DNA from: Branchiostoma floridae
Lineage: Eukaryota; Chordata; Leptocardii; Amphioxiformes; Branchiostomatidae
Length of the DNA: 64,000 nucleotides
Assembly: GCF_000003815.2 (NCBI RefSeq)
Contig: NC_049991.1
Coordinates: 14,926,154 to 14,990,153 of the forward strand
Direction of reading: 5' to 3'
Below the pieces are notes generated by a model. The model had not been told where the DNA came from, searched no databases, and saw nothing but the letters and a program-made list of their open reading frames with translations. The position numbers were made by a program, and so were the translations under genes. Shown here one piece after another: positions 25,701 to 30,508 of this stretch. Numbering within the stretch: the stretch's first letter is position 1; the number at the start of each line of letters is the position of its first letter.

Positions 25701-28700
25701 ATTATCATCTTTTTCTCACACATCAACTGCTCTTGCTCTTATAAAGTGAATACTTTTCATTTTTGGCACATCAAAAGTGAAATGAACACAAAGGATAACA
25801 ACACAGTGCCCCTACATCCTCCAAAGGGCTATGAACTACATTTACCTTCTGTCCTTTTGTATGTCTCTCACTTTAGTAGTACATCTTTAATATGTGGCTC
25901 TGTCAAAATAAGTAACTAACTTGTTGCAACCTGAATAAAGTCAAAGTTATTAACTTGAGTCCAGTGCCAGTCTGCCTGAAAGAAAAATAAATGTCAGAAG
26001 AAGTACCCACCGCAGGCATATTCTGCACCTGCTCACTGTAGTAGATGAAGCCGGTGTGGGGCATGATGGCAGTGGAGGAGAAACCAGCTAGTGTTCTCTT
26101 CTGGGCACCCAGAACCAGCACGTTACAGGACGGCATCTTGGAGAGAGAAGTCAGGCCTCCTGCCACACCTGAATAACAGGAGTGCCATTGGGTTAATTTT
26201 TTTTAGATGGCTTCAAATAGTAGTGACCTGTTGTTATCACAAGCTGACCCTTGAAGCATTTTAATGGTAATGCAATATTCTAACTTCAAATTGAAAAAAA
26301 ATGGTTTAATGAGTATTTTTCACATCACATCATCTTCATGTCCAAATTTAAAGAGGCCCTCTGGGCACTTAGCTGTTTAAATGTTTGAATCATTTTAATA
26401 CAAACTACAGTTAAGGATAGACTACACTCTACGTGTGTTGTTCTAATTACTGAGATTTTGGAAACGAAATAAGAATTGTTTCTAAAACAGTGGTAAAATT
26501 AAAAATGGACTCCCCAAGCACAAACTTACCCATGAGTTTGGCGGCTGTTGATGCCCCTACAATGATGGACAAGTTTGGAGCGATGAAGGACATTCTGGAC
26601 TCCACGTACTCATAGATCTTCAGCTTGGCTGCGTTCAGGTCCACGGCCATGTCACAGGCCTCGTTTATGTCATTCAGGTCATCTGAGGACAGGATAGACC
26701 TGAGAGGGGAAAAAAAGTTTCTGTCACCTCTAGGCATGATGAATAATAATATTTATAAACCTGTCAACAAAAAAGAGCCATGAAGTTTTATGAAGAGCAA
26801 GCAGTTTTATTTTCTATTTCTTTTTCTCCAAGTCAAATGCAGCCACACTCTTAAGCCTTTGGACAATGATGTGATTCATGTACTGCTCCTTACAGATTAA
26901 AACAGTTGTATGCTCCTGCAAGTTTTTGGCTATGTATTTAGAAAAGTGATAATTAAATCATACTCTGCTGGGAGAGCTTGGATGCATTAGCCATGACATG
27001 AGAGATGCTGCCTGGCCAGAACCTCCCAGAGTAATCATTGTCTGATGGAAGCTGCAATATAGAAAATGATGTCTACCAAGACAAAAAGAGTTTAGGAAGA
27101 GATTAAATCATTTCCACACAAACCTACCCTTGAGTGGTGGAGGCGGTGACACTGACCACCATGATGGTAGCGTTTGTCAGGATGGTCGGGAGGACTTCGT
27201 TGTTCTTTGTCTTTTCTAGATCATTGCCAATCTCCTGTTCAACAGAAAAAAAAAAACATTGACTGTTAACATCTCAATGTAAAAGTAGGTCTGGAAAATT
27301 TTGTGATTCAGAACTCTTCAGCTCTATACACAGTCTTTCAAAATATGTGTACATCAAGTTTACAGTGTAAGGGGCATTCTGAAGTCCAGCCTTGTTATGC
27401 TTTGGTTGCTCCCTAAAGGTATCTTTCTGCCAACAACGGAATAGCCCCATATGCTGGTTGCAACAAACCGTAGGGGATACAAATCAAAGCATAGAGATCC
27501 CAAATGCCCAACTGAGCTGGGTGAGAACCGTGTGCATGCACATCATTTGGACAATATACATGTATGTTTACCTAGAACACAGGGATAAGACACTAACCCT
27601 GACAGTCCTGATGTAGTCCAGTGCCATGGGGACCAGAGACTCCAGCTCAGGAAATCTTTTGGAGTAGATGTCACGGACAAACTTGTGGATGATGTCTGTG
27701 GAGGAAGCATACAAGTTAAAACCTCACTGGCACTGGTATAATGTTTTCTTACCAAAGAAAAACTTGCCATCATCAAAGCTTGACATCTGAGGAAGCACAT
27801 CTAATGCTCTTAAGATAGAGGACAAGAGATGATAAACCAGACAGTAACTGAGTTAGAGTGTCCGCAAACTGTGAGAAATGTCCAGTGTATTGTTTCATGA
27901 CTACAGGTTTGTAAGTCTTGGTACTCCTTTGCAGACAACAATGACTCTCATTATACTCTTCATCAAATTCATGGGGTGTATGACATCATGTGGCTTCTGA
28001 GACCAAAAATTGATGTACAGAGACGTCTAAACTTTGCACTTTGTGGTTTGTTGTGAAAAGTTATGAGTAATGCAGTATCCTGTATATTACTGATGAAAAG
28101 AAGAACAAGCCATACTTACTGATCTCATTCTCAATCTCCACAGTGAGGTTGTTAGCTTCCACAATCAGCTGGTACTCTGGGTCAGCTTCCACTGGTCCCA
28201 CCACTGGGGGAGAGGCAAGGGCTTGGTCAAGATGTTTTCATTTGGACAAACTAATGAAGATGACATACCAAACTAATAATCTTGGTCCTAATGAATCTTA
28301 TGCGTTGTATTACATATATTACAGCATAGTTCTCAACAAGCAAGTCAAATGGATGTAAAGCTAAAAAGCTGCAACCACTATGAAAAGGTACACAGGTATA
28401 CAAGGCAGTCTTTGCAATACAAGAAAGGGCGAGCTATTGACAGGATGTTCTAGCCTTTTCACTACCATCTTCTGTAGTGACTGCTGGCTCAATCCTTTCG
28501 CTTGAAAAAGGATTAAGCCAGCAGTTACTACGAGGATGTACTCAGGAGGCTAAGGATGTTCTTGTCAATATCCATGTCAAAAATACAGGCCATTCACTGT
28601 AAGTAGTGATTCACTGTAAGTAGTGATTAACTGTAAGTAGTGTAACCCTGACATACTTTCATCCCTGAAGCCGCTGCTTGTGTAGTGATCGATCTGTTCC

Positions 28701-28867
28701 ATGATGTGTTTTAACTGCTGCGAATCCCGCAGCTTGGCGATGGAGGCGATCCCGTCCTGCTTCACCTCCATCTCCATGGTAACCTCCTCCACATCCTCGA
28801 TCTCCTTCTCCTCATTCTCCGGAGCCTCCTCCTCCAGATCAGCCAGGAGCTCGTCTGCTAGAGACAT
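22795..28867 (-). CDS. PRPF31: U4/U6 small nuclear ribonucleoprotein Prp31
   Basis: Ten coding exons on the minus strand: 28,657-28,867, 28,120-28,203, 27,598-27,695, 27,128-27,234, 26,530-26,699, 26,011-26,168, 25,293-25,583, 24,401-24,529, 23,796-23,927 and 22,795-22,911. All have GT/AG sites and consistent phases and give 498 aa, against 499 in human. The protein bridges U4 snRNA and 15.5K and holds U4/U6 to U5 in the spliceosomal tri-snRNP, in the nucleus. The order is an acidic N-terminus ([14 protein letters not shown]), the NOSIC region, the Nop domain ([44 protein letters not shown]), the basic nuclear localisation stretch [16 protein letters not shown] in exon 7, and the conserved [13 protein letters not shown] near the C-terminus. 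A splice acceptor at 28,904 indicates at least one upstream noncoding exon. No inactivating change is seen. Confidence 0.97.
24840..25292 (-). repeat. Tandem partial copies of PRPF31 exon 7 end and donor site
   Basis: Exon 7 ends at 25,293 with its 5' splice site just below. Copies of the last ~40-60 exonic bases plus intron sequence recur with the exon edge at 25,135, 24,972 and 24,856 (spacing 158, 163 and 116 bp). The two nearer copies keep a GTGAAG donor; the farthest has GCGAAG. In the two nearer copies the GAG of MTEFRK has become TAG, so they are pseudo-exon fragments. Confidence 0.85.
28478..28535. repeat. Short perfect-type hairpin in PRPF31 intron 1
   Basis: The arm GTAGTGACTGCTGGCTCAAT and its continuation CCTT are mirrored by AAGGATTAAGCCAGCAGTTACTAC, with only scattered mismatches over about 24 bp and a short CGCTTGAA-type loop. 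Related fragments lie at 24,620-24,700 and near 21,640, so it is more likely a tiny MITE than a microRNA gene. Confidence 0.6.
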
Positions 28868-29162
28868 CCTGATTGGCTGGCAGTCTCAGCTGGGCACAGA
28901 ATACCTGAAGTTGTGAACAAAGGGATCAGAACAGCTGTAATGTTAATAATAGTATTGTAAAAGGGTAAAATGTTTGCGCTGGTTATGTATGTTAATTACA
29001 GTTTTCGCTGTGACCTCTTTACTGCAAACTTTATATACCACCAGTGACCACTTATTGCTGTGTTTCAAACACAAAGTAAACACCACTGAACACCCCATTT
29101 CCCAAAAATAACTAGATACTGTACTGGAATTGAATTATTTTGACTAGTTCATTCTGCTTTTG

Positions 29163-29195
29163 CTGAAGAAGAGTGATGGATGTCACTCGAAACGT
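29163..29195 (+). repeat. Hammerhead-like / Penelope-type motif
   Basis: CTGAAGA, a perfect 6-bp stem GAGTGA/TCACTC around a TGGATG loop, then GAAAC reproduce the conserved core order of a hammerhead ribozyme (CUGANGA, stem II, GAAA), with one extra A between CTGAAGA and the stem. Similar sequences are known in pseudo-LTRs of Penelope-like retroelements. No reverse transcriptase is nearby, so this would be a remnant. Confidence 0.35.
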
Positions 29196-29258
29196 CCGGA
29201 AGTAAATATCCGTTTTTTATCCAGTTGTAGAAATTGAATTGTATTTGAATATCGCTGT

Positions 29259-30242
29259 GGCTATTGACACACTCAGTGTGCCAATAGCCAAACAGGCTAT
29301 TGACACACCGAGATGCCAGTCAGCCAATCAGAGCTTGTAACGCTCCTTTCTGGCAATATTTTACACAAGCAATAGTTGATTAGACATTGTTCGGAAGATT
29401 AGACATTGGAATCTTTGAATCTTGGAATGAACGGACGTATTCAAGTTATGCCCTACATTTGGATACCTGTTAATACAGCCCTCATCGTGAATGTTTGGCG
29501 TAGCGTAGTGGATAGAGCGTTGGACCCGGGAATTCGTGACAGCAACTCCGACCCGGTTCGAGTCCGCGCCCGAGTTTTTTTAAATTTTTTTTTTCAATTT
29601 TTTCTTGTCCCTTTTTAAACATCCATTTGATATAAGAATATTTTATATATAAACAACTTTTAAAGTTTCTGTTAACATCATAAACCAAAAATAACACTGA
29701 CCACAAAACATGTCATAATTTTCGGCCGTGTGGTTCCGGCGCTATCGGCAGCGACTCAGAAGAATATTTCTTTCACATTAAAAATAATGGAGGTAAAACA
29801 ACAACTATAACTTCGCTTCCTTAGTGATATAAGTTTTGAGGCCGCAAATTCTCCAATACGGCAGGAATTCGTCGGTAAACACAGCTGAAAACGTGTTCCT
29901 GACCGATCCAACATGGCTGCCATGATCACATGCGGTGACAGTAAAACTAGCACCCTATATGATAGCAGATTCCGATGTTTAAAATTGTGCCGTAAACACG
30001 TGAAAAAGATCGTATTTTGGTTTGATAATGGACACAGGATGCCATTTGTATTTTTCAGAGTGTTGATTGTCAAATATAATCGTAAGATTTCCTCATTTTA
30101 GTGGTTTCTAGCACTGGGTGTGTCAATAGCCTAAACAGGCTATCGCCACACTGAGTGTGCCAATAGCCTAAACAGGCTATCGACACACTCAGTGTGTCAA
30201 TAGCCTGTTTAGGCTATCGACACACTGGGTGTGTCAATAGCC
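29259..30242. mobile_element. 984-bp TIR element with palindrome-array ends and internal tRNA-like module
   Basis: The left end begins GGCTATTGACACACTCAGTG and the right end is the inverse, ...GTGTGTCAATAGCC. Each end is built of ~31-bp near-palindromes centred on CACACTCAGTGTG, separated by AAACAG/CTGTTTA; the right end holds about four. Flanks TCGCTGT and TCGCTCT agree at 6 of 7 bases, suggesting a short target duplication. The interior has no transposase but contains the tRNA-like segment at 29,497-29,573. Confidence 0.65.
29497..29573 (+). ncRNA. tRNA-like module with pol III A and B boxes
   Basis: TAGCGTAGTGG fits the A-box consensus and GGTTCGAGTCC fits the B-box consensus, about 45 bases apart as in a tRNA gene. 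The ends GGCG and CGCC could pair as part of an acceptor stem. A T-run, which could terminate pol III, follows at once. The full cloverleaf is poor, so this is a tRNA-derived promoter or degenerate tRNA, not a confident functional tRNA. Confidence 0.5.
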
Positions 30243-30508
30243 TCGCTCTTTGAATATTACTTACCTGGATGTCTGCAGGTAAGAAATAAAAGCATAAAAC
30301 AGTACATTGAACATGGAATAGACACTATTTAATACCAGAACAAAACAGAAGCATGCACTGGTGCTGGTCCAAAGCATCCCATCCCAAACAAATGCCCCCC
30401 TCCCTCCTCGCTAAAACCCTTGACTGCTTTGATAATTTCAAGCCACAAAAATGATTCCGAAACATTCGAACATCTCAGAATATACGAAAACTGTGAGAAT
30501 GTACTTAC

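Follow-up and report, generated by a model that had tools for sequence, protein, structure and literature searches.

The stretch of Branchiostoma floridae DNA analysed here, hereafter the window, is 64,000 nucleotides long (C13:14926154-14990153), and the mobile element that concerns us lies between a left neighbour on the minus strand with a Nop domain and a right neighbour on the plus strand with an RRM. These domains and strands agree with the placement between PRPF31 and RBM7 in an earlier note that was made from the letters of the window, and we take the two neighbours to be these genes. A third frame at 28577-28885 had no match to any Pfam family and is read as the start of PRPF31. Directly to the left of the element, at 29160-29243, is a stretch of the form ctgaagaag...cgaaacgtcc, which we take to resemble the hammerhead-type motif of Penelope-like elements and which had no match in Rfam at the gathering score. 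The element may have landed in an old repeat at this place. Its features, in window coordinates, are as follows.

29244-29252, no strand: left copy of the 9-bp target site duplication, TTTGAATAT, an exact match to 30249-30257.
29253-30248, plus strand: whole element, a putative non-autonomous Mutator-like transposon of 996 bp, with the ends CGCTGT...TCGCTC common to the genomic copies.
29253-29331, plus strand: left end, CGCTGT followed by one near-perfect and one degenerate palindrome of 31 bp.
29318-29473, plus strand: left flank of the tRNA-like module with a CCAAT sequence, by eye partly common to the transposase-bearing locus L060.
29474-29574, plus strand: tRNA-like unit, hypervariable; it spans consensus 222-321, starts about 27 bp before the A box and reaches to the T-runs.
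29501-29511, plus strand: A box, TAGCGTAGTGG, matching 11 of 12 consensus positions.
29555-29565, plus strand: B box, GGTTCGAGTCC, a perfect match at 11 of 11 consensus positions.
29575-29604, plus strand: T-runs, from the sequence a likely pol III terminator.
29608-30110, plus strand: right interior, conserved (0.23 minor alleles per site, 40 copies) and without a long ORF (longest frame 113 codons).
30112-30248, plus strand: right end, made of 3.5 units of the 31-bp palindrome spaced at 37 bp, then TCGCTC.
30249-30257, no strand: right copy of the 9-bp target site duplication, TTTGAATAT.

The limits of the element had been set at 29259 and 30242, and the alignment of genomic copies shifts each of them 6 bp outward, to 29253 and 30248. 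A short duplication at the element edge, TCGCT, was dropped because the genomic copies assign those bases to the element. Palindrome arrays had been described at both ends, and these were borne out by a repeat search, by shuffling and by folding. On the left, where one to two units had been counted, the units start at 29259 (near-perfect) and 29295 (degenerate), in agreement with that count; on the right, the array at 30112-30242 consists of three full units and a half unit instead of the four proposed. Within the window, 10 sites match the half-site GGCTATYGRCACAC at up to two mismatches, all of them inside the element, against an expectation of 1.15, and 10 occurrences were reached in none of 100 shuffles. 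Furthermore, the right array folded as single-stranded DNA gave a z of -12. The description as a TIR element holds for the 31-bp units, which are inverted between the two ends and constitute terminal inverted repeats, but not for the outermost 6 bp, which are not inverted copies of each other. A microRNA at the right palindromes was rejected, as mir-1263 and other Rfam families stayed far below their gathering scores (50 against 95 bits), a resemblance in the hairpin only. Scans of viral contigs with the palindrome and with the module gave no match.

The 513.4-Mb assembly (431 contigs) was searched for the element, and the best 40 of 415 candidate places were scored; these are the highest-scoring copies and not a random draw. 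The scored copies are 834 to 995 bp long. In the 30 copies checked for a target duplication, a 9-bp duplication at the element junction is exact in 23, one of which (L012) is a poly-A run, and has at most one mismatch in 26; three copies have one mismatch, and four (L015, L022, L023 and L028) do not fit. Divergence of the copies from their consensus ranges from 0.4 to 4.8%. Exact 20-bp ends occur genome-wide at 152 places for the left end and 92 for the right. When 45 loci were fetched by the left end (L042-L086, with many of the earlier copies among them), the module was directly visible in 41; another (L054) is the cut-off end of L028, which carries the module, and three (L048, L056 and L060) are without it. 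L048 and L056 have the common left end and different interiors, with arrays of GCACTGG/CCAGTGC-type palindromic repeats nearby.

The earlier note had named two ways in which the tRNA-like part could prove to be a later SINE insertion, namely its absence from most copies or a target duplication of its own. However, it is spanned by all 40 of the scored copies, and it is the element as a whole that the 9-bp duplication flanks. Likewise, when the module alone was used as the query and the best 40 of 92 candidates were scored, 31 matches had an exact left end at a distance of 212-236 bp, 6 were within scored element copies and 2 were at most 1.4 kb from an exact right end in fitting orientation; the remaining match is unplaced relative to the left ends listed, which leaves 39 of the 40 in or beside an element. 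A later SINE insertion is thus rejected, and the tRNA-like unit is part of the consensus. The idea of a cut-and-paste-type element that brings its own pol III promoter is accordingly one that the 9-bp duplications, together with the presence of the module in every scored copy, appear to support.

The copies differ in how they are arranged. The number of right palindromes varies among them, and one copy (L037) has a single half unit together with an exact duplication, so that some 26 bp of right end apparently suffice. In another (L041:984-1343), an insert of about 360 bp with the inverted ends CCAGGCTTTTAGC and GCTAAAAGCCTGG lies inside the tRNA-like unit. Three pairs of copies are inverted relative to each other at distances of 0.5-1.3 kb (C1:4858256/4859924, C17:1790375/1792586 and C5:865678/867171); the C1 pair consists of L005, with an exact duplication of its own, and L012 in the poly-A run. 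Yet another copy (L025) seems to be nested within the palindromes of another. Local hopping or a preference for nesting are possible explanations for the inverted pairs and the nesting.

Classification of the family is helped by L060 (C2:20558208), which shares the left end of the element over 64 bp by BLAST and about 100 bp by eye. The locus opens with the left palindromes and the CCAAT region, and an exon matching ZSWIM3_N (29 bits against a cutoff of 27.8) starts at an ATG about 175 bp further in; its frame runs into a splice donor-like GTAAGT. The stretch that follows (L088) contains an open-ended frame of at least 769 codons with matches to the models PF21056 ZSWIM1-3 RNaseH (E 4.7e-36) and PF10551 MULE (E 1.2e-20). 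Taken together, the left end and the ORF suggest that L060/L088 is likely the transposase source and autonomous partner of the short family. A 17-kb autonomous element from C2:20558208 to C2:20575364 was rejected, since the flanking 9-mers differ and the right end tested is not the partner; the 9-mer whose repeat would mark the duplication of the transposase-bearing locus is ATCTTTTTT. No transposase was visible in the ORF list of a larger copy, L085.

Because the same left end adjoins a MULE/ZSWIM transposase ORF, we regard the family as Mutator-like and non-autonomous. The superfamily is described as having target duplications of 8-11 bp in the part of PMC6446971 available to us, and the 9-bp duplications, exact in 23 of 30 copies, fall within this range. 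MULEs have also been reported in Branchiostoma floridae, where according to the same text the authors could not detect their transposases (PMC6446971), and MULE-derived FHY3-type genes are listed for Branchiostoma in the accessible part of PMC10027918. The element, of which there are many near-identical copies, is best read as a young non-autonomous member of the Mutator-like (MULE) superfamily, ordinary in its class. L060 lacks a tRNA-like unit where the other copies have it, and the short family therefore looks like a MULE end to which other sequence has been joined, the pol III unit among it.

The proposal that the interior carries A and B boxes followed by T-runs was confirmed, and among the sites listed across the 64 kb there is no rival to the pair at 29501/29555 in match quality. 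In nearly all of the copies examined, a type-2 pol III promoter occupies the same fixed position. The tRNA-like character is confined to this promoter: the gene finder ARAGORN at default settings called no gene in the module, and at a lowered threshold it gave a poor 84-base match; Rfam had no match to the module at E values up to 10, and the fold of the module RNA was not better than that of shuffles. A true tRNA gene was rejected on these results. We refer to the module as pol III-type, a designation suggested by its promoter boxes, its T-runs and the mutation pattern described below.

In the 40 scored copies, the unit outside the boxes (consensus 222-321) carries 85 distinct minor alleles at 78 sites (1.09 per site), against 155 at 637 sites in the flanks (0.24 per site), which amounts to four to five times more distinct substitutions per site (p 1e-23) in copies that are about 1% diverged. 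The excess persists at non-CpG sites in these copies, and CpG decay is therefore rejected as its cause. Variability of the T-run is also raised in the 40 copies. Pairs of copies that are less than 0.4% apart outside the module differ by a mean of 9-10% within it (16 pairs, not independent). Private changes in 30 copies number 40 over 81 sites in the module and 99 over 657 in the flanks, an approximately 3-fold elevation (p 7e-9), and when all differences are considered, the module differs at 6.1% per site against 0.9% outside, a 7-fold elevation. Indels are also found within the unit, among them a 9-bp insertion (L013), an 8-bp deletion (L025) and a deletion of about 45 bp (L064). Variability is raised over some 80 bp that are balanced in composition, and has no particular link to the T-run.

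The types of substitution are not clearly different, with 45 transitions and 40 transversions in the unit and 91 and 64, respectively, in the flanks of the 40 copies. A transversion bias in the module, which the private changes in 30 copies had suggested, was gone when all distinct alleles in 40 copies were used, and was rejected. The relation between the number of changes per copy in the module and outside is weak (rho 0.30, p 0.06). The least variable part of the element is the left palindrome, with 3 minor alleles at 65 sites (29253-29317, 40 copies). Even among private changes, substitutions per site are about 5 times rarer in this palindromic end than in the flanks, for which hairpin-mediated correction or sampling bias could account.

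A second set of copies, here called subfamily B, consists of 17 loci that carry the element behind an identical 9-mer, TTGTTATAT, inside an unrelated repeat that measures about 1.77 kb and has different ends (TTTTTGCCTTGCCGCCAGGCAAGGC and AAGATTTCTTGTTT) and no target duplication that is clear by eye. One locus (L051) differs upstream of the 9-mer. BLAST pieces of the repeat at L045, L053, L063 and 14 other loci are 97.7-100% identical to L072. It seems that the repeat captured a single copy of the element and carried it along as it spread, and that the transposase of the element itself was not responsible. The unit in subfamily B is clearly diverged; it occupies the same position and has a T-run and well-matched A and B boxes. 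In the 17 copies, the unit outside the boxes has 14 alleles at 68 sites against 83 at 1642 sites elsewhere (p 3e-5). A deletion in L069 gives a false variable window when all 17 copies are used, and in the figures recomputed on 16 copies, from which this misaligned copy was excluded, the contrast is 14 at 68 against 40 at 1642 (p 2e-8). The boxes in this subfamily have 1 allele at 22 sites. The most variable 67-bp window in subfamily B is not the module; it lies 486 bp upstream of the element, has 12 alleles and is probably a single block common to L045, L046, L050 and L057. The two sets have spread differently and both are raised, and the elevated rate therefore appears to follow the unit and not one way of moving.

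Whether the promoter is under selection was considered from the distribution of changes over the boxes. In the 40 copies, each of the 6 alleles in the B box is private to one copy and none is shared; the remainder of the unit holds 45 private alleles and 40 shared ones (p 0.03 for the difference). The A box has 8 alleles in these copies, 6 of them shared and some at degenerate positions. Both boxes together have 14 alleles at 22 sites against 85 at 78 for the rest of the unit (p 0.07, not significant), and for the B box alone the allele count gives a p of 0.11 in the 40 copies. Private changes per site are about equal in the B box (0.55) and the spacer (0.57), as mutation after insertion predicts, and no change in the B box has been passed on, as selection on source copies predicts. 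We also compared 11 members, chosen by hand as diverged, with the family consensus. In these, the A box and the B box each differ by 6.6%, the part before the A box by 30%, the spacer by 18.8% and the part after the B box by 22%, and the left and right flanks differ by 6.6% and 5.2%, respectively; put differently, the A box is 93% identical, the upstream part 70% and the spacer 81%. Since the plain box counts are not significant, the argument for the boxes rests on the split between private and shared changes and on the diverged members.

On the sequence evidence, we consider it probable that the unit is used by pol III in the germ line, that transcription raises its mutation rate and that the promoter is kept by selection on the copies that propagate. 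The transposase would bind the palindrome arrays at both ends and move the element, and TFIIIC and pol III would occupy the module and transcribe it in the germ line, with local mutagenesis as at tRNA genes. Copies with a damaged B box would fail to propagate, and selection would act on the promoter or the bound complex and not on the RNA. The RNA itself cannot matter much, because its sequence is not kept and its fold is no better than that of shuffles. An elevated mutation rate beside tRNA genes has been described (Thornlow 2018, as cited in the accessible text of PMC8113476). Several observations count against the pol III reading: the variable stretch starts about 25 bp upstream of the A box, which is at or before the expected start of transcription; the types of substitution are not clearly different from those in the flanks; the changes per copy in the module and outside are only weakly related; by plain counts the boxes have not significantly fewer alleles; and in subfamily B it is another window that is the most variable.

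A plausible benefit is that the bound complex may keep the element open, or bounded against silencing, and so give the transposase access. A role of the pol III complex as a chromatin boundary or opener would be the most likely benefit of the promoter; mouse B2 SINEs act as boundaries, for which CTCF and not TFIIIC is named in the available portion of PMC8136502. A more far-reaching hypothesis, which we advance tentatively, is that the family needs its pol III promoter for the complex bound there and not for the RNA, which would make the element a mobile TFIIIC boundary or open-chromatin beacon, and that the body of the unit is free to hypermutate and might record the strength of germ-line transcription of each copy.

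Of the alternatives, the one that survives best, unlikely as we think it is, attributes the hypervariability to the stalling of replication forks at a bound TFIIIC complex or at the T-rich tract, with germ-line transcription being irrelevant. The three indels in the unit and the variable T-run would be in line with such stalling, but the elevation over about 80 bp of balanced composition is not tied to that tract. Furthermore, TFIIIC binding normally accompanies pol III activity. Diversifying selection on the unit RNA, for example to escape silencing by small RNAs, so that changed source copies win, is somewhat less probable still. It could explain why inherited changes are more enriched than private ones, as the 7-fold elevation for all differences and the approximately 3-fold elevation for private changes indicate; however, private changes should not be raised at all by selection among sources, and small RNAs should target the flanks too.

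We attach slightly less credence again to the idea that the unit is an inert SINE or tRNA pseudogene from one progenitor, varied by gene conversion with tRNA-like repeats. Its promoter boxes do resemble those of tRNA-derived SINEs, and a donor pool would give near-identical pairs that differ by 9-10% in the module. No such pool is seen, with 39 of the best 40 of 92 module matches in or beside an element; nor was a target duplication of the unit's own seen, and the boxes are kept across the diverged members while the rest drifts. Finally, a foldback (FB/TU-type) or Rehavkus-type element that is not a MULE relative is the least probable reading, for although ends of repeated palindromic units and 9-bp duplications would suit it, and Rehavkus is described in the accessible part of PMC6446971 as having 9-bp duplications, a minisatellite near its 3' end and a transposase with a PHD finger, the transposase beside the same left end matches the ZSWIM1-3 RNaseH and MULE models, and no PHD finger model was among the Pfam matches (E up to 0.01) of the incomplete L088 ORF searched.

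We thus favor the reading of a MULE with a pol III unit that is used in the germ line and kept by selection. To present knowledge, a kept pol III promoter in a non-autonomous MULE is unusual and the local hypervariability over the promoter is new; in the portions of the open-licence literature available to us, we recognised no description of a DNA transposon in which a pol III unit is under selection. The family raises the question of why a cut-and-paste element keeps a pol III promoter, and it bears on the role of TFIIIC as a chromatin boundary. It also provides a place and an open frame for a lancelet MULE transposase, where one survey, in the part accessible, reports having detected none (PMC6446971). 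Mutagenesis in the gene body is hard to study at tRNA genes, where selection eliminates the mutations. In this family, a single pol III-type unit is found in near-identical flanks at many places and the unit's body seems able to vary freely outside the boxes, so that the number of mutations per copy could be tested against pol III transcription.

Several known systems share some of these features. Like MULEs with a ZSWIM1/3-type transposase, the family has 9-bp duplications, a left end that is found beside a MULE/ZSWIM RNaseH ORF and small non-autonomous copies, but it differs from them in that the outermost 6 bp are not inverted and in its arrays of 31-bp palindromes and its fixed internal type-2 pol III promoter. 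Foldback elements, such as FB of Drosophila and TU of sea urchin, also have terminal arrays of repeated sub-units in varying number, whereas in the family described here a half unit coexists with an exact duplication (L037). The tRNA-derived SINEs carry A and B promoter boxes, and the T-run terminator and the short non-coding unit are likewise in common; here, however, the unit makes up a tenth of a cut-and-paste element, the T-runs follow directly after it, and the copies found are those of the whole element and not of the unit. A mobile element with a pol III promoter is also known from the Cassandra TRIM retrotransposons, which have a 5S RNA promoter unit in their long terminal repeats, whereas the present family would be a DNA transposon with an internal tRNA-like unit. 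Lastly, the raised substitution at pol III units recalls tRNA genes, the flanks of which are mutable (Thornlow 2018, as cited in the accessible text of PMC8113476). The body of a tRNA gene is held by selection, whereas in this element the body outside the boxes seems free and itself shows the raised rate.
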